NCBI GenBank assembly: GCA_026713545.1
Contig: JAPOOG010000099.1
Coordinates: 1 to 64,000 of the forward strand
Reading direction: 5' to 3'
From: Bryobacterales bacterium
GTDB taxonomy: Bacteria > Acidobacteriota > Terriglobia > Bryobacterales > UBA6623
DNA length: 64,000 nucleotides
Made by a program: the position numbers and the translations under genes. Below are positions 1,865-20,690 of this stretch, piece after piece. The stretch's first letter is position 1; every line of letters starts with the position of its first letter. The notes under the pieces are model-generated. The model did not search any database and was not told where the DNA came from. It was given only the letters and a program-made list of their open reading frames with translations.

Positions 1865-2226
1865 TCGGAAACGCGGCGGAATGTTTTGCTTCTGTGCCTG
1901 CCGCGCTGACCGCGTTTCTTGTGTTGGAGTGGGATGTTTTCCGATCTTTTCGGGAAATATGTCTGTCACGCTTCTGTCTGCATCAACCAGCGGGAACTCC
2001 CCTGGAACAATAGTCTTCGTCTGACAGGCTTCAGTGTGATGGGCTGGTGCTTTACTTGGTTTTTCTACAAGACTTCGGCCGGGGGCAGCTCCTTTTTATA
2101 GCCGGGAAAGGAGGCCCAGGGCTTTGGCAGAGCTTGTGCGTAGGGCCGGATTTGAGGACACTGGCTGAACCGGCCCGATCGAATGTGGAAGAATGTCTTC
2201 TGACGAAAGGTTGCTTCGCTGCCTGA
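1865..2226. other. Gene-free spacer
   Basis: I see no convincing gene, RNA or terminator here. The short frames have no family signature. The spacer ends where the inverted-repeat element begins at 2227. Confidence 0.4.
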
Positions 2227-14148: not shown

Positions 14149-15483
14149 ATGACCACGCTCCGCCGCGTTGCTCTTTCGATCAATCTCCTGGCTCTTCCTA
14201 TATGCGCGGAACCTTCCTTCCGCAGCGATGTCTTCCCCATCATTCGTGACAACTGCCTCGCCTGCCACAGCGACCAGACAAAGATGGGACAACTCGTGAT
14301 GGAGAGCTACGACGGGTTGATGCTGGGCGGCAAGAGCGGACCTGCGATTACCGCCGGTGATGCGGAGTCAAGCTTGCTGGTCCGCATGCTCGAAGGACGT
14401 GTTCAGCCGAAGATGCCGTTCGGCGGCGAACTCCCGCCCCACAACATCGCTGTAATCAAAGCCTGGATCGATTCCGGTGCGAAAGGCGAAGAGGTATCCG
14501 GAGGCCGTACGCTGGCGCTACCTGCCATTGAGAGCCGCCGTGCAGTACCTTCTCCCGTCAGCGCCCTGGCGTTTTCCCGGGATGGCGCCACATTGGCGGT
14601 CGCTTCGTATCGGCAGGTTCGGATCACGGACGCCGCAAGCGGCAACGTTACGCGGACGCTTGACGGCCACGCCGACCTCGTCCGCTCTCTGGCCTTTTCG
14701 CCCTCCGGCAGGATGCTCGCCGCCGCCGGCGGCGCCCCCGCGCAGTTCGGTGAAGTCAAAGTGTGGGATGTCGAGACCGGAGAACTACGCCACACCATCA
14801 ATGCCCACAAAGACTGCATCTACTCGGTCGACTTCTCGCCCGATGGCAAGCAGATCGTCACCGCCAGCTATGACCGCATGATCGAACTGTGGAGCGCCGA
14901 AACGGGCGAGCCTATCCGCACGTTGAAGGACCATGTCGATGCCGTCTACGCCGTCGATTTCGGCAACGAACCCGGTCAACTCGTGTCCGGTGGCGCCGAC
15001 CGCTCGGTCAAGCTTTGGAACCTCGAGACCGGCAAGCCGAGCCTCACGCTCAGCGAGCCCCTGGCCGGCGTTTTGACCGTGGCGTTCCATCCGGACGGTC
15101 GCCGGCTCGCCGCCGCCGGCGCCGATAAGACGATCCGCGTCTGGCGCATTGCCAACGACGAGAACACCGCCGCTGAATTGGTGAAGGCAATGACGGGGCA
15201 CGAAGCCGCGATCCTCAAGATCGCCTTTTCGCCTGATGGCTCGACGATCGTGTCATCGTCATCGGATCGATCCCTGAAGGTCTGGGACACTGCGACCCTG
15301 AACGAAAAGGGCGTCCTCGCCGATCAATCCGATTGGGGACAGGCCCTGGCCTTTCACCCTGATGGAAAGAGTTTCGTAGTGGGTCGCTACGACGGCTCAC
15401 TCACTGCTTACGAGACAGTTTTGTTGCAGCCAACTAAGAAGTGGGAGCGCGCGGCCGGCCCGTCGCATCTCGCGCGCCGATAA
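14149..15483 (+). CDS. PSCyt1 c-type-cytochrome-like / WD40 repeat protein
   Basis: From ATG 14149 the product is 444 residues with signal peptide MTTLRRVALSINLLALPICA. A short planctomycete-type cytochrome domain contains NCLACHSDQT (CXXCH). Seven WD40-like repeats follow, with motifs ALAFSRDGATLAVAS, VDFSPDGKQIVTASYDRMIELW and IAFSPDGSTIVSSSSDRSLKVWD. The propeller probably binds partners while the heme domain carries electrons. An in-frame GTG at 14122, four bases after the previous stop, would add nine acidic/polar residues before the signal peptide and is less likely. It is cotranscribed with the DUF1501 and DUF1549 genes. Confidence 0.85.
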   Translation: MTTLRRVALSINLLALPICAEPSFRSDVFPIIRDNCLACHSDQTKMGQLVMESYDGLMLGGKSGPAITAGDAESSLLVRMLEGRVQPKMPFGGELPPHNIAVIKAWIDSGAKGEEVSGGRTLALPAIESRRAVPSPVSALAFSRDGATLAVASYRQVRITDAASGNVTRTLDGHADLVRSLAFSPSGRMLAAAGGAPAQFGEVKVWDVETGELRHTINAHKDCIYSVDFSPDGKQIVTASYDRMIELWSAETGEPIRTLKDHVDAVYAVDFGNEPGQLVSGGADRSVKLWNLETGKPSLTLSEPLAGVLTVAFHPDGRRLAAAGADKTIRVWRIANDENTAAELVKAMTGHEAAILKIAFSPDGSTIVSSSSDRSLKVWDTATLNEKGVLADQSDWGQALAFHPDGKSFVVGRYDGSLTAYETVLLQPTKKWERAAGPSHLARR

Positions 15484-15500
15484 CAAGCTTACCCGGAGGA

Positions 15501-17957
15501 ATGATGAAACGATTCCTGAACCTGGCACTGTTCGTTGCCATCCCGGCGATCCTCCTCGCTGATACCCGCACCAACCCGCCCACCATTCAGGAAACGTCGC
15601 CGCTCGCTGTTACCCGTGGCCTGACGACTGAACTGAAGATCGAAGGTATCAACCTTGTCGGAGCGCGGGAAATCCTGTTCGACGACCCGGCTGTTCAAGG
15701 CAAGATCCTCCATGTCAACACACTCGGTGAGTTTGTCGGCACTTTCATCGGTTCGAACGGTGCCCCCAGCACCGTCAACCGCGGTGACCCGCCCCCGCTT
15801 AACGAAGTCGCCATCGAAGTGGAAGTCGACTCGGGAGCCAAGCTCGGCCTTTACTCTTTCCGCCTCGTTACCAGGGAAGGCACGACCAACACCGGCAAGA
15901 TCAGCGTCGAGCCCTTCTATGGCGCCCGCCCGGAAATTGAACCTAACGATACGCTCCAGGATGTTCTCCTCCAAGACGCATACATCTTCCCACCGGCCAT
16001 CATCACCGGCACTCTTCGCAAGCCCGGCGACGTCGACTACCTGCCGTTCGAGGCGCCGGCCGGAGAAGAATTCGTGTTCCACATGAGCGCTGCGGAACTA
16101 GGCTCGAAACTGCGTTGGAAGATCGATCTGATGAATGCGCAGGGGACGACCGTTGCCTCGCGCTCTGCCGCGGACACCGCCCGCGAGCCGGTCCTCGCCT
16201 ATCGCATCCCCTCCAGCGGCAAATACTATGTTGCGATCTCGGACATCGAGCGCGGGGGAAGCCGGGGACATTTCTATCGGCTCAAGATCGGCTCGTACCC
16301 TTATCTCACGGGCGTTCATCCACTCGGTGTTCCTGAAGGTGAAAACACGCAGATCACCCTACAGGGCCATAATCTCGGCGATCGGCGGACGATCACGGTT
16401 GATGGCAAATCCGACTATCGAGCGATGGCTCGACAGGATATCCGCCCGGGTCTGGATCTCGGCTTTCCGCACAACGAGTTGAAGATCGCTGTCGGCAAAC
16501 ACTCGGAAGTCACCGAGGATGACCGTGGCGCAAGTCCCGATTCGGCGATGTCGCTCAACGCACCGGTTACCGTCAACGGAAAGATCAGTGGCTTCTCTCA
16601 AGACCAGATGCCGGACGAAGATTACTATCGTTTCAGCGCAACGAAGGGCAGGGAATACACGATCGAAGTCGAAGCCCGCCGCCTTGGCTCGCCGCTCGAT
16701 TCCACTCTCGAAATTCTGGACAGCAACGGCAATCTGGTTCCGCAAATCAAAGCTCGCGCCGAGCTCGGAACCGAGATCGAGCTGCGGGATCACAGCTCTG
16801 TCCAAAGCGCCCTTCGTATCAGCTCACCGCGGGAAAAGGGCTTTCGTGTGGGCGACTATGTCATGATCGGCAGCGAAATTCTCCGCATCGGCGCTTTGCC
16901 GCGCGGTCCGGACGACGGCACGGTTTTCATCAACCTTGGCGACCGTCGCATCGGCTACTTCAACACGACCCCGGAAGCCCAAGCTCTCGGTACTGCCGTC
17001 TACAAGGTAAGTCTGCACGCGCCCGACGCCAAGTTGCAGCCGAACGGACTTCCGCAACGGGTCTTTTTCCATCAAAACGACGACGGCGGCCCCGGGTACG
17101 ATAAGGACTCCCGTCTGAGCTTCACTGCTCCGGATGACGGCGATTACTTCATCCGCCTGCGAGACCTGAGAGGACACCAAGGCGAGGACTATGCCTACCG
17201 CCTCATCGTGCGGGAAGCTTCGCCCGATTTCCAGCTCAGCGTCTCGCCTGCCAATCCGAATCTCCCGCGTGGCGGCGGCGCGACCGTCACCGTGACGGCT
17301 TTGCGCTACGACGGTTTCGACGGCCCGATCGAGGTCGAGGTACGCGATCTGCCGCCGGGCATCAGGGCCACCAGGGAAACCATTGTGCCGGGCGAAAGCT
17401 CTACCGTCCTGACGCTCTTCGCCGATTCGGATGCAGAGCTTGAACATGCCGTCCCGCTGCACGTAGTCGGTCGAAGCGAGTTGCAGGGCAAGAGCATCGA
17501 GCGCGTCGCTAATGCAGACGACAATCTGCGCTACATCGCTCTTACCGAGCCGGCCGACTTGGCCGTCGAGGTCGAGCCGCCTGAGGTCGAGCTCGAGGCT
17601 GGCTCGAAGACGACTATCGCTGTCCGCGTCAGGCGCAATAACGGATTCAGGGGCCGCGTTCCCATCGCAATCACGAATCTGCCGTTCGGCGTCCGAGTCA
17701 CCGATGTCGGGCTCAACGGAGTATTGGTGACCGAGGAGGAGACGCGGCGGGAGTTCGTGCTCGAAGCGTTGCCCGATGTGGAACCGACCGAGCGGTTGAT
17801 CGCTGTCAGCGGTACCGTGGAGACTCGCTCGCCGATCCGACCGACTTACGCCGCCGAACCGTTCAAACTGAAGGTCGTTTCACGTAAGGTGTCACGAGCG
17901 GCGGCGGTCTCATCGAGACGCGAGAGGCTCTCCGCGTCTTCCGCTGGACAACCGTAA
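15501..17957 (+). CDS. Exported pre-peptidase (PPC)-domain protein
   Basis: The 818-residue protein starts MMKRFLNLALFVAIPAILLA, a signal peptide. An N-terminal TIG-like segment (about 25-130) is followed by PPC-type beta-sandwich domains, recognisable by EPNDTLQDV...GTLRKPGDVDYLPFEAPAGEEFVF near 155-200 and DEDYYRFSATKGREYTIEVEA near 375-395. A third stretch with DGDYFIRLRDLRGHQGEDYAYRL lies near 547-570. C-terminal Ig-like NEW3/alpha-galactosidase-type repeats follow. Such proteins close DUF1501 operons. GGAGGA lies directly before the double ATG, favouring the second Met at 15504. The upstream extension reaches into the preceding gene and is not a plausible N-terminus. Confidence 0.85.
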   Translation: MMKRFLNLALFVAIPAILLADTRTNPPTIQETSPLAVTRGLTTELKIEGINLVGAREILFDDPAVQGKILHVNTLGEFVGTFIGSNGAPSTVNRGDPPPLNEVAIEVEVDSGAKLGLYSFRLVTREGTTNTGKISVEPFYGARPEIEPNDTLQDVLLQDAYIFPPAIITGTLRKPGDVDYLPFEAPAGEEFVFHMSAAELGSKLRWKIDLMNAQGTTVASRSAADTAREPVLAYRIPSSGKYYVAISDIERGGSRGHFYRLKIGSYPYLTGVHPLGVPEGENTQITLQGHNLGDRRTITVDGKSDYRAMARQDIRPGLDLGFPHNELKIAVGKHSEVTEDDRGASPDSAMSLNAPVTVNGKISGFSQDQMPDEDYYRFSATKGREYTIEVEARRLGSPLDSTLEILDSNGNLVPQIKARAELGTEIELRDHSSVQSALRISSPREKGFRVGDYVMIGSEILRIGALPRGPDDGTVFINLGDRRIGYFNTTPEAQALGTAVYKVSLHAPDAKLQPNGLPQRVFFHQNDDGGPGYDKDSRLSFTAPDDGDYFIRLRDLRGHQGEDYAYRLIVREASPDFQLSVSPANPNLPRGGGATVTVTALRYDGFDGPIEVEVRDLPPGIRATRETIVPGESSTVLTLFADSDAELEHAVPLHVVGRSELQGKSIERVANADDNLRYIALTEPADLAVEVEPPEVELEAGSKTTIAVRVRRNNGFRGRVPIAITNLPFGVRVTDVGLNGVLVTEEETRREFVLEALPDVEPTERLIAVSGTVETRSPIRPTYAAEPFKLKVVSRKVSRAAAVSSRRERLSASSAGQP

Positions 17958-18023: not shown

Positions 18024-18199
18024 CCTGCATTTCTCACCACGTGGCGAGGCGAAGTGGGTGAGAGGGCTGTCAGGAGGAGGCGCGCGCCGCTGGGCGCGTG
18101 CAGGTGTACTTGATCGTACATCGAGCACGGCAAGCAAGCGCAACGAAGTCATGGCGGCCTTATCGCTTGCTTCGGCCGTCGGGTGGTGAGAAATGCAGG
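18024..18199. repeat. Full-length 176-bp inverted-repeat element, family 1 copy B
   Basis: Perfect 17-bp terminal repeats CCTGCATTTCTCACCAC bound it. The interior is the same as at 2227-2413 but about 11 bases shorter. It fills the gap between two convergent genes. On the minus strand its end directly follows the TAA stop of the DAHP synthase gene, so the junction reads TAA|CCTGCATTT. Confidence 0.85.
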
Positions 18200-19234
18200 T
18201 TAACTCGGAACGGCCACTGCGCGGTTCGCCTGCCAGAGCTGTATGTAAGGCTTGAGACCGTCCATCATTTTCTTGAAGCCGTCGAACGTCAGTGACTGTG
18301 GACCGTCGCTCCACGCGGATTCGGGATTCGGGTGGGTTTCCACCATCATGCCGTCAGCTCCGATTGCCACGCAGGCGCAAGCGATCTGAGGAATGAGGTC
18401 GCGCCTGCCTGAAGAGTGTGCCGGATCGAGCACAACCGGTAAGTGCGTCAACTTGTTCAAGACCGGCACGGCTTGAATATCCAACACGTTGCGAGTCTCG
18501 GTTTCAAAAGTGCGAATCCCTCGCTCGCACAGAATGACATTCGGGTTGCCGTGCGAGACGACGTATTCCGCCGAGAGCAACAACTCCTTGATGGTCGAAC
18601 TCAATCCTCTCTTCAGCATCACCGGCCGATCCACACGCCCGACCGCCTTCAGCAGCGGGAAATTCTGGACGTTCCGGGCTCCGATCTGCAGGATGTCGGT
18701 GTATTCCGCCACAAGATTCACGTTCGTCACGGTCATCACTTCTGTGATGACCGCCAGCCCATGCGTGTCACCCGCCTTGCGCAACAACTTGAGCCCTTCT
18801 TCCTCGAGCCCCTGGAAGTCATACGGAGAAGTTCGGGGCTTGTATGCACCACCGCGCAGGACTTTTCCTCCCGCGCTGGCGACCGCTTCGGCCGTAGCCA
18901 TGATCTGCTCTTCAGTTTCTACGGAACAAGGCCCCGCTATCACAACGAACTCGTCACCGCCGACTACAGTGTTACCAACTGCGATCTGCGTTCGGTCCAA
19001 TCTGTACTGGCGGCTCACGAACTTGTACGGAGCCGAAATCCGCACTGCGCTCTCGACCGAATCATAGGATCTCAGCGATTCCAGGCAATGCGTCACATCC
19101 CCCGTCCCGACTGCGGCGATCACAACCCGTTCTTCTCCCTGGATGGAATGGACCCGGTATCCGAAATCTTCAATCCTTTTGCAGATGTCTTCAATCTGTT
19201 CTTTCGTTGCCCCTAACTTCATCGATATGATCAT
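18200..19234 (-). CDS. aroF: 3-deoxy-7-phosphoheptulonate (DAHP) synthase with N-terminal regulatory domain
   Basis: The 344-residue enzyme condenses phosphoenolpyruvate and erythrose-4-phosphate, the first step of the shikimate pathway. Residues 1-70 form a ferredoxin-like/ACT-like regulatory domain, as in the Thermotoga-type enzyme that tyrosine and phenylalanine inhibit. Catalytic-barrel motifs are [54 protein letters not shown] and [15 protein letters not shown]. Either ATG 19234 or the Met four codons on (19222) could start it. Upstream on the same strand lie an attenuator and a leader peptide, and the stop codon abuts a family 1 element. Confidence 0.95.
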
Positions 19235-19251: not shown

Positions 19252-19276
19252 AAAAACCCACTCAGTGCGAGTGGGT
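19252..19276 (-). terminator. Intrinsic terminator (attenuator) in the DAHP synthase leader
   Basis: On the minus strand an 8-bp perfect stem ACCCACTC / GAGTGGGT with a five-base loop is followed by a run of T, ending 18 bases before the start codon. Its 5' arm (CCACTC) can instead pair with GAGTGG at 19315-19310, giving an antiterminator. It therefore acts before the gene, not after one. Confidence 0.85.
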
Positions 19277-19296
19277 GGCCTCTTAAAAACAACTCA

Positions 19297-19364
19297 GTTC
19301 GAACCGACGCCACTCTGCGGGTCAATCGCCCGAAAAGGAAAGCCAAAAATAGGCGCGTTCGAAC
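19297..19364 (-). promoter_or_regulatory. Alternative leader RNA pairings of the aromatic attenuator
   Basis: Region 1 (19364-19352, GTTCGAACGCGCC, inside the leader peptide codons) can pair with region 2 (19311-19297, GGCGTCGGTTCGAAC) by eight plus five base pairs around a two-base bulge. Region 2 overlaps GAGTGG (19315-19310), which can pair with the terminator 5' arm. A ribosome stalled at the Tyr-Phe-Trp codons would mask region 1, free region 2, form the 2:3 antiterminator and allow transcription of the synthase gene. Confidence 0.75.
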
Positions 19365-19369
19365 AGCAT
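19322..19369 (-). CDS. Aromatic leader peptide controlling DAHP synthase
   Basis: The 15-codon frame encodes MLFERAYFWLSFSGD and then stops. Tyr, Phe and Trp codons are consecutive (positions 7-9), with further Phe at 3 and 12, so shortage of any aromatic aminoacyl-tRNA would stall a ribosome here. The start codon lies only about 11 bases after the predicted -10 box, so the transcript would carry a 5' leader of about five bases and translation would be nearly leaderless. It is followed by alternative hairpins and a terminator, the arrangement of trp/phe-type attenuators. Confidence 0.85.
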   Translation of the reverse strand: MLFERAYFWLSFSGD

Positions 19370-19380
19370 GGTAAACGTGC

Positions 19381-19409
19381 AGTATACCAGTGACCGCTGT
19401 GCCTGTCCA
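19381..19409 (-). promoter_or_regulatory. Promoter of the aromatic leader and DAHP synthase
   Basis: On the minus strand: TGGACA (19409-19404), a 17-base spacer, then TATACT (19386-19381), a close sigma70 match. The predicted start of transcription near 19374 is just ahead of the leader peptide ATG. Confidence 0.7.
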
Positions 19410-19793
19410 GTCGCATACTCTTTCCGGCAGGCCTTCAACCATCCATTAGGGATCGAAAGGCAGATCGAACGGTCTCGGGGAGAGGTTCCATCACGTGGGT
19501 CGTAAATCGTGGGAAAGCCGGAGAGGCCTCAACAGTGTGGATTCACACCAACTTTTGCCCCGACACTCTCTCTGTAAGGGCATTTTCTGACCGCTCCCGG
19601 TGTGCTTGCCGTCGCACACATTTCGATCGTTCTTCTCCAACCCCTTTTACGAGAGGATGAGTGGCGCAGACTCCCCGTTTCTCTCTCTGATGAGGTAAAC
19701 TGGGACAGTGCAAGTCGGTGTGGAACCCATGCCGGCCGGGCAACGTCCTTCTCCAGTGGCGAAAGCGAAGTGAAGGGTCAAAGGAGATCCACT

Positions 19794-20690
19794 TTGTCAC
19801 GTCCACAGCGACTCATTCAGTTAGCCGCTCTTTGTATTCTTGCTGCTCTCGTCGGTACCAGTGCCGCGTCTGCAGCTTCGAAAGAGATCATCACTCTGCA
19901 GCGCGAAATGTCGATGCTGCTCGTCGAGGTGCGCCAGCTCAAGAGCCAATATGGTGAGCGGATGGCCGTCCTCGAAGAACTGACGAAGCAGAACCTCGAA
20001 GTCGCCAACCGCATGAATCAGGCGATGGCTGTGCTCGAACGGCAACTCGCAAAACAGAGCGAATCACTGGAGCGACCGGTGTCGTCGATGAGCACGCGTG
20101 TCGAGAATGTGTCGAACGACTTCCGCAACTTGCGGGCCGCGGTCGAGGCCATCAACACACGTTTGTCTCGTGTGCAGCAGGACGTCGAGGACATCAAGAG
20201 TCATCTCATGACACTGCCTCCCCCGTCCTTCGAAGGCGATGAGACGGCTTCCGCTGTCGCCGATCCGTCTTCGGCCAGCACGCTGTTCGACGCGGCACTC
20301 GGAGATTTTCATCGTGGCAACTACGAGCTGTCGAAAGTCCAGTTCAAAGATTACTTGAGAGACTACGGCCGGTCGCTCCGGGCTGTTGAGGCCCAGTACT
20401 ACCTCGGAGCGATTGCTTATTCCGAACAGGATTACCTGGGAGCCACCCGCAACTTCGATCTCGTGCTCGAGCGATATCAGGTAGCCAGCATCACGCCGGA
20501 TGCCCAGTACAAGAAGGCGATGTCGCTGATGAAACTCAATCGTCTGGATGAAGCCGGTGCCGAGTTGCAAAGCCTTGTCGAACGGTTCCCGAACAGCACT
20601 GTCACGCCCAACGCCGAGGCTCAATTGGAAGAGTTGCGTGGCTTCAATCAGAAACCTTCTCCTACGCGGCAGTCGTCTCTCACCAACTAG
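19794..20690 (+). CDS. YbgF/CpoB-like periplasmic coiled-coil and TPR protein
   Basis: The 298-residue protein has a signal peptide ending near ASAAS. A long predicted coiled coil (about 32-140, LQREMSMLLVEVRQLKSQYGERM...) comes next. A C-terminal tetratricopeptide block (about 165-285) contains LFDAALGDFHRGNYELSKVQFKDYL and YKKAMSLMKLNRLDEA. This is the architecture of YbgF/CpoB, which links the Tol-Pal system to cell-wall synthesis in Proteobacteria; no tol or pal genes are adjacent here. AAGGAG at 19781-19786 points to TTG 19794 as start; a GTG at 19770 is in frame but precedes that site. Confidence 0.85.
   Translation: MSRPQRLIQLAALCILAALVGTSAASAASKEIITLQREMSMLLVEVRQLKSQYGERMAVLEELTKQNLEVANRMNQAMAVLERQLAKQSESLERPVSSMSTRVENVSNDFRNLRAAVEAINTRLSRVQQDVEDIKSHLMTLPPPSFEGDETASAVADPSSASTLFDAALGDFHRGNYELSKVQFKDYLRDYGRSLRAVEAQYYLGAIAYSEQDYLGATRNFDLVLERYQVASITPDAQYKKAMSLMKLNRLDEAGAELQSLVERFPNSTVTPNAEAQLEELRGFNQKPSPTRQSSLTN

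Follow-up and report, generated by a model that had tools for sequence, protein, structure and literature searches.

The DAHP synthase gene aroF of a Bryobacterales bacterium (assembly GCA_026713545.1, contig JAPOOG010000099.1, positions 1 to 64,000, hereafter the window) is preceded by an attenuator-type leader. As judged from sequence comparisons, compensating mutations have kept this leader throughout a class of Acidobacteriota, and it most likely allows ribosomes short of Phe, Tyr or Trp to switch aroF on. Ribosome stalling on aromatic codons regulates the trp and phe operons in Proteobacteria. The sequence-level features of such a control were all found here, namely a short ORF rich in codons for the end products of the pathway and conserved as codons, an antiterminator and a terminator that are mutually exclusive and both kept by compensatory change, an intrinsic terminator between the ORF and the structural gene, and a downstream gene, DAHP synthase, belonging to the pathway of the sensed amino acids. 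With these features in place, a ribosome-mediated transcription attenuator very probably controls aroF.

Organisation of the aroF leader

The elements of the locus are collected in Table 1. The initial annotation had proposed a minus-strand promoter TGGACA-17-TATACT, all letters of which proved to be as claimed (10 of 12 consensus matches in the two hexamers), followed by a 15-codon frame with consecutive Tyr, Phe and Trp codons. This frame was found at 19369-19322 (-), reading ATG CTG TTC GAA CGC GCC TAT TTT TGG CTT TCC TTT TCG GGC GAT TGA, and its stop codon lies 6 nt from region 2. Further downstream, the core of region 3 (CCCACTC, 19275-19269, minus strand) pairs with region 4 (GAGTGGG, 19263-19257, minus strand) ahead of five T residues (19256-19252), in agreement with the 8-bp terminator stem and T run reported before the start codon, the stem measuring 8-9 bp. 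The last T of the terminator is located 18 nt (about 20) upstream of the likely aroF ATG.

Table 1. Features of the aroF leader locus (positions in the window)
Feature	Position	Strand	Remarks
-35 hexamer TGGACA	19404..19409	-	17-nt spacer to -10
-10 hexamer TATACT, TG directly before	19381..19386	-	11 nt before leader ATG (19369)
Leader peptide ORF MLFERAYFWLSFSGD*, 15 codons, near-leaderless	19322..19369	-	Counterparts in about 50 relatives
Region 1 GTTCGAACGCGCC, partner of region 2	19352..19364	-	Duplex -20.1 kcal/mol; cognate test
Control codons Tyr7-Phe8-Trp9 (TAT TTT TGG)	19343..19351	-	Ribosome stall model
H1, small hairpin CGGG-cgattga-CCCG around stop codon, candidate pause hairpin	19318..19332	-	Sequence; longer covarying versions in relatives
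Region 2 GAGTGGCGTCGGTTCGAAC: GAGTGG to region 3, GGCG..GTTCGAAC to region 1	19297..19315	-	
Region 3 GGCCACCCACTC, strand common to antiterminator (2:3) and terminator (3:4)	19269..19280	-	
Intrinsic terminator (3:4) ACCCACTC-GCACT-GAGTGGGT and T run	19252..19276	-	Stem 8-9 bp
aroF, DAHP synthase (PRK08673/TIGR01361 type), N-terminal ferredoxin-like domain	18200..19234	-	

Among the 337 ATG ORFs of 10-25 amino acids in the window, only one other is equally rich in aromatic residues; this second small ORF (2039-2101, plus strand) has no terminator behind it and was taken as chance.

The start of the leader peptide had been described as lying about 11 bases after the -10 box, hence nearly leaderless and unusual for an attenuator. 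The distance in the window is indeed 11 nt. The gap has a median of 9 nt in 48 leaders, a TATACT/TATAAT-like box being present 7-12 nt before the ATG in most relatives, and given that transcription usually starts 6-8 nt after the -10 box, 0-5 nt would remain before the ATG. With its 5' end predicted from the -10 box, the near-leaderless start is thus a fixed trait of the leader family, and the qualification as unusual does not hold, since the trait is conserved and the attenuator ORF trpL of Sinorhizobium meliloti is known to be leaderless (PMC7298713). The ilvB leader of Corynebacterium glutamicum has also been described, in a work cited by PMC4046766, as having no ribosome binding site. Such a start raises the question of how a ribosome is loaded early enough to act on a terminator located about 110 nt further on.

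Conservation of the leader peptide and of the alternative helices

The upstream regions of aroF were collected from relatives of the same family and order. A short ATG frame dense in aromatic codons, followed by GAGTGG and then by a GAGTGGG terminator, was observed in about 50 of them (peptides MLYSAYSFSFRFWC, MSYRYANAFWFRFSWLG and MPQRYNSFRFWFWYRA, for example), with a mean aromatic content of 33%. Codons for Phe, Tyr and Trp are found together in 37 of 51 leaders, Phe being present in 51/51, Tyr in 44/51 and Trp in 42/51. Codon columns 9, 11 and 13 of alignment A1 are occupied by Phe or Tyr in 93, 90 and 100% of cases respectively, by means of TTT, TTC, TAT and TAC, and one-step departures from Phe lead to Tyr 21 times versus twice to Leu, a tally given as counts with no probability because the species are not independent. 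These synonymous and Phe-Tyr exchanges reflect selection on the meaning of the codons, beyond the nucleotides alone. An Arg is present in the motif aromatic-x-aromatic-Arg-aromatic-Trp in 30 of 42 leaders, and the TGG of the common motif RFW falls inside the 5' arm of H1.

Both alternative helices were found to be kept by compensating changes. The antiterminator 2:3 (GAGTGG-C-GTTGG with CCAAC-CCACTC) is paired in 90.2% of alignment cells, with a covariation of 0.165; shuffled alignments gave 0.120, 0/500 reaching the observed value, and slid registers did not exceed 0.074. This bears out the proposed pairing of GAGTGG in region 2 with CCACTC of the terminator. The terminator 3:4 is paired in 97.9% of cells, with a covariation of 0.180 compared to 0.111 (0/500); both scores exceed those of all shuffles and all slid registers. 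In one leader (L050), the three strands have changed jointly (GAGCGG / CCGCTC / GAGCGG). A cognate test, in which the strand of each species was duplexed with its own or another species' partner, gave stronger cognate than non-cognate duplexes for 1:2 (49 leaders, p = 7.1e-7), 2:3 (p = 3.5e-7), 3:4 (p = 9e-9) and H1 (p = 2.5e-4).

The pairing of regions 1 and 2, also predicted by the initial annotation, received modest support by columns (67.7% of cells paired, 1/500 shuffles as high) because its register shifts among genera. It was at first judged unsupported, GTTCGAAC being kept solely in the two closest genomes; the cognate test, with an advantage of 3.5 kcal/mol for own-species pairing, shows that the pairing persists with different bases.

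The stop codon lies inside H1, and the Arg-Phe-Trp codons form part of its 5' arm. Lengths of 12-13 bp, with compensated changes (ACCGCTTT/AAAGCGGT in L171; ACCGG/CCGGT), are attained in related families, the pairs of H1 covarying in L171, L179 and L189. Column-wise counting fails for H1 because its position shifts, and folding sequence by sequence did better; the H1 of the window has just 4 bp, and there the folding chose a different best hairpin. In most sequences, H1 ends at most 3 nt from the start of the conserved GAGTGGCGTTG, which has a G at -10, a pyrimidine at -1 and a G at +1, about 10-12 nt behind H1. This layout of a hairpin-stabilised pause is known from the his and trp pauses. 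By analogy of layout, H1 may tentatively be regarded as a pause hairpin, a role which is less sure in the window's own leader.

Absence of conservation of the peptide codons or of the pairing among relatives had been named as grounds for abandoning the attenuator. The opposite was observed, as the codons, both alternative helices, the terminator, the promoter-ATG spacing and the aroF context are kept across Bryobacterales and in two further families of the class that lie outside this order.

Modelled effect of ribosome position on helix formation

Computational folding of the leader had been called for in the initial annotation. As a single sequence, the leader of the window folds unremarkably (z = -1.34) and would not have been recognised in this way; the evidence for the element is comparative. 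In a model with the ribosome in place, 46 leaders were folded with the nucleotides under the ribosome blocked and the RNA cut before region 4, assuming a transcription start 4 nt before the ATG and a footprint reaching 15 nt upstream of the A-site codon and 13 nt downstream of it. The probability of the antiterminator was 0.71-0.87 with the A site at least 8 codons ahead of the stop, dropped to 0.10 when the stop codon was reached, and was 0.30 without ribosome; the corresponding values for the window were 0.9 at Tyr/Phe/Trp, 0.0 at the stop codon and 0.32. Aromatic codons occupy the stall positions favouring the antiterminator more than shuffled ones do (0.724 compared to 0.673 +/- 0.017, 1/2000), and effective codons (stalling at which gives antitermination at P of at least 0.6) are present for Phe in 43, for Tyr in 35 and for Trp in 28 of the 46 leaders. 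Three relatives from the same family as the window do not switch well, the model giving no switch for L006 and L007 and a poor one for L005. In these simulations, the position of the ribosome would thus decide which helix forms, save in these three relatives. When full-length RNA was folded at equilibrium, the terminator was favoured at every ribosome position (antiterminator at most 0.12), implying that the switch would have to be kinetic and settled before region 4 is complete, as in other attenuators.

Distribution of the leader in Acidobacteriota and other phyla

A covariance model (R1) was built from 42 Bryobacterales leaders, that of the window among them. In the window's own genome, R1 has a single match, at this locus (E=5.8e-19, the leader being in the training set). 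Of the 399 genomes of the class, 136 gave a match; 78 of these belong to the same order, and the other 58 come from outside it, nearly all of them from two families. Wherever the gene behind a match at E<1e-5 was checked, it was aroF; this includes 21/21 class matches from outside the training order, which stand directly before it. Matches not associated with aroF (L202, L203, L218, L219 and L222) all have E >= 2.5e-4 and look like chance. In a sample of the phylum, R1 matched 9 of 396 genomes, and three of these nine, in another class, precede aroF with the leader MMRNQLADIRVTSCANWFWWPWHF... A leader MMRNQLADIRVTSCANWFWWPWHFTDAAWVSHRPL with a terminator before aroF was noted in L198-L200, from another class of the phylum. 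L201 (genome G488, another class) gave a weak R1 match at about 1501-1644 (E=2.7e-4), with a leader ending in FFVFGYNYAWRWYSSTRWAVS and a terminator directly before a trpE-like gene, and is a probable trpE attenuator in Acidobacteriota.

The leader was lacking in 11/11 genomes of genus g6 (L008-L018), which belongs to the window's own family, and many of them have another conserved upstream stretch with hairpins in common, indicating that the control was lost or replaced. Several other relatives are also without the element upstream of aroF. On the basis of these sequence matches, the element is a class-level trait with losses and is not phylum-wide at the sensitivity of R1.

Among 50 further aroF upstream regions (L115-L164, mostly from other phyla), 11 carry an aromatic-rich ORF with a terminator, one of them in a Bryobacteraceae record; among control windows taken at these loci, the combination was seen in 4 of 748. 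A second leader family was recognised in Syntrophaceae, Smithellaceae, Syntrophobacterales and relatives (L125, L128, L131, L132, L134 and L135) and in Rokubacteria (L136), with peptides such as MDRKLNANVSFYGYWFYNYYVSVCPSLRRTC, those of Syntrophaceae and relatives reading MDRKLNANVSFYGYWFYNYY.. Its antiterminator is common to the Syntrophaceae-type and Rokubacteria leaders (GGTCTGCCC/GGGTAGATC, GGTCCGCCC/GGGCGGACC); GGTYYGCCC, located within the ORF, pairs with GGGYRGAYC of the first terminator, two being present. In this antiterminator, 98.4% of cells are paired, in seven sequences, too few for strong covariation. A search of Rfam with this second family gave no match. Aromatic-rich leader ORFs with terminators before aroF were also seen in Armatimonadetes (L143, ICFNFYFAFYFWRR) and Calditrichota (L145, MASTERLNHFFGFYFGYYYWTQ), and in Roseiflexus (L164, 683-763) a leader MQSRSTYYFWFWYFASSPRDWLLRVG with a terminator precedes an aroH-looking chorismate mutase gene, aroF being located further downstream. 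Aromatic-rich aroF leaders thus look like repeated inventions.

Genomic context of aroF

The start of aroF is most likely the ATG at 19234, the proteins of relatives beginning with M-I-[IV]-S-M, and the N-terminal ferredoxin-like domain, through which the initial annotation expected feedback to act, is present and corresponds to PF18152. Since the left neighbour is convergent (15441-17957, plus strand) and the right one divergent (19602-20690, plus strand), aroF is most likely monocistronic, transcribed alone from the leader promoter. Directly behind the aroF stop codon (18025-18198), a MITE-like repeat is inserted, about 174 bp long and bounded by the terminal inverted repeats CTGCATTTCTCACCAC; its end motif occurs 9 times in the window versus 0.03 expected, and the genome holds at least about 40 copies.

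The genome measures 5.6 Mb and is 99% complete. DAHP synthases of class II or of the AroFGH type were not detected in it, and the only paralogue of AroF (37%) is KdsA (KDO8P synthase). AroF therefore appears to be the only DAHP synthase detected in the genome. No leader was found upstream of trpE in the window's own family (L225-L235), because trpE there directly follows, almost without gap, an aroE-like gene (shikimate dehydrogenase-looking). Given this absence, the principal RNA-level control of Trp may also reside in the leader of aroF.

Proposed mechanism and alternative explanations

Under a shortage of charged Tyr-, Phe- or Trp-tRNA, the ribosome would stall at codons 7-9 and cover region 1; pairing of region 2 with region 3 would then precede the synthesis of region 4, and transcription would continue into aroF. 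Once the peptide is completed, the ribosome at the stop codon would cover region 2 instead, region 3 would pair with region 4 and transcription would end, while without translation 1:2 would form and termination would be favoured. One leader would in this manner act as an OR gate for three end products before the sole DAHP synthase found. With less certainty, H1, which ends beside GAGTGGCGTTG, may hold RNA polymerase back and thereby give translation time to begin.

Separate sensing of Phe, Tyr and Trp by the leader is likely. The same type of attenuator could respond mainly to Phe, with Tyr, the Trp codons being structural or fortuitous. Phe codons are indeed the only ones present in every leader (51/51, compared to 44 for Tyr and 42 for Trp), a Trp codon reaches an effective position in 28 of 46 leaders compared to 43 for Phe and 35 for Tyr, the TGG of the RFW stretch also belongs to the 5' arm of H1, and aroR of C. 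glutamicum reads Phe and Tyr only (PMC11802643). In the window, however, Trp9 lies within the effective stretch (P=0.9), and with a single DAHP synthase and a trpE devoid of leader, Trp would otherwise give no signal at the entry of the pathway, feedback excepted; a response mainly to Phe is thus rather unlikely. The nascent peptide might also be an arrest sequence sensing free aromatic amino acids in the ribosomal tunnel, as TnaC does for Trp, and the recurrence of aromatic-x-aromatic-Arg-aromatic-Trp exceeds what codon sensing needs. Yet the distance from this motif to the stop varies from 1 to 13 codons and its residues are exchangeable, which does not resemble TnaC, the Arg codon is inside H1, whose pairs covary, and arrest at high amino acid concentration would leave region 2 uncovered and increase aroF expression, the opposite of what a biosynthetic gene requires. 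Such an arrest peptide is therefore quite improbable.

Leaders in which the ORF is incidental, such as a T-box, a riboswitch or a protein-bound RNA, would occupy the same position before the gene, and T-boxes control aromatic genes in some other bacteria (cited in PMC1262725). The leader matched 0 of 4227 Rfam families at the gathering score, none relevant up to E of 5, and its conservation tracks the reading frame, making this explanation highly improbable. Finally, the modest single-sequence z-score and the existence of one other equally aromatic small ORF in the window would suit an ordinary terminator of an upstream or spurious transcript next to a chance ORF, but codon conservation, covariation and the fixed place before aroF in many genomes contradict this, leaving it the least probable of these explanations. 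An attenuator reading aromatic codons through the position of the ribosome remains the preferred explanation.

Relation to known attenuators and significance

No Rfam family, T-box, riboswitch, Trp_leader and Phe_leader included, matched the leader at the gathering score, and a threshold of up to E = 5 yielded irrelevant matches alone (E ~2). The trp and pheA attenuators of Enterobacteria share with it the control codons, the alternative helices, a region 2 behind the stop codon and a terminator before the first gene, but they read one amino acid each from a Shine-Dalgarno-led ORF, and the Trp_leader and Phe_leader models do not match the Bryobacterales leader. In the ilvGMEDA attenuator of E. 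coli, one leader reads Ile, Val and Leu; it is thus alike in serving several end products, and differs in pathway (branched-chain), gene and structure.

The closest known systems are aroR and uORFC-13-1. In C. glutamicum, aroR is located before aroF; there too, a DAHP synthase gene is subject to attenuation through a leader peptide containing aromatic codons, and induction upon Phe limitation was reported (Neshat et al. 2014, via PMC11802643 and PMC4046766). This leader has Phe-Tyr-Phe codons with no Trp reported, and it belongs to another phylum. In Acholeplasma, uORFC-13-1 also combines a uORF and a terminator before aroF with a promoter nearby, but includes a ribosome binding site as well as one or more Phe codons within a U run; it is a prediction from 24 Acholeplasma and environmental sequences (PMC8632094). 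The rnTrpL/peTrpL system of S. meliloti is similar in that the attenuator RNA starts at the leader ATG (PMC7298713); it concerns Trp only, and the Bryobacterales 5' end is placed 0-5 nt before the ATG from the -10 box. The present leader differs from aroR and uORFC-13-1 in its combination of Phe, Tyr and Trp codons, its leaderless start, its stop-codon hairpin and its lineage.

In a survey of 2010, leader peptides were known just from Proteobacteria, Actinobacteria and, as its own result, Firmicutes, and nearly no predicted attenuator in Acidobacteria had a known function (PMC2965389). In a search of the open-access literature, no description of a leader peptide of Acidobacteria was found.

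It is about evenly balanced whether one RNA leader, class-wide in Acidobacteriota and separately invented in several other phyla, serves as an OR gate for Phe, Tyr and Trp before a single DAHP synthase, where E. coli instead uses three isoenzymes under separate regulation. The Acidobacteriota gain a well-supported, class-wide example of an attenuator with a named gene and a covariance model for finding it, and the testable question is raised whether one leader integrating three amino acids for one enzyme is an alternative to isoenzymes.
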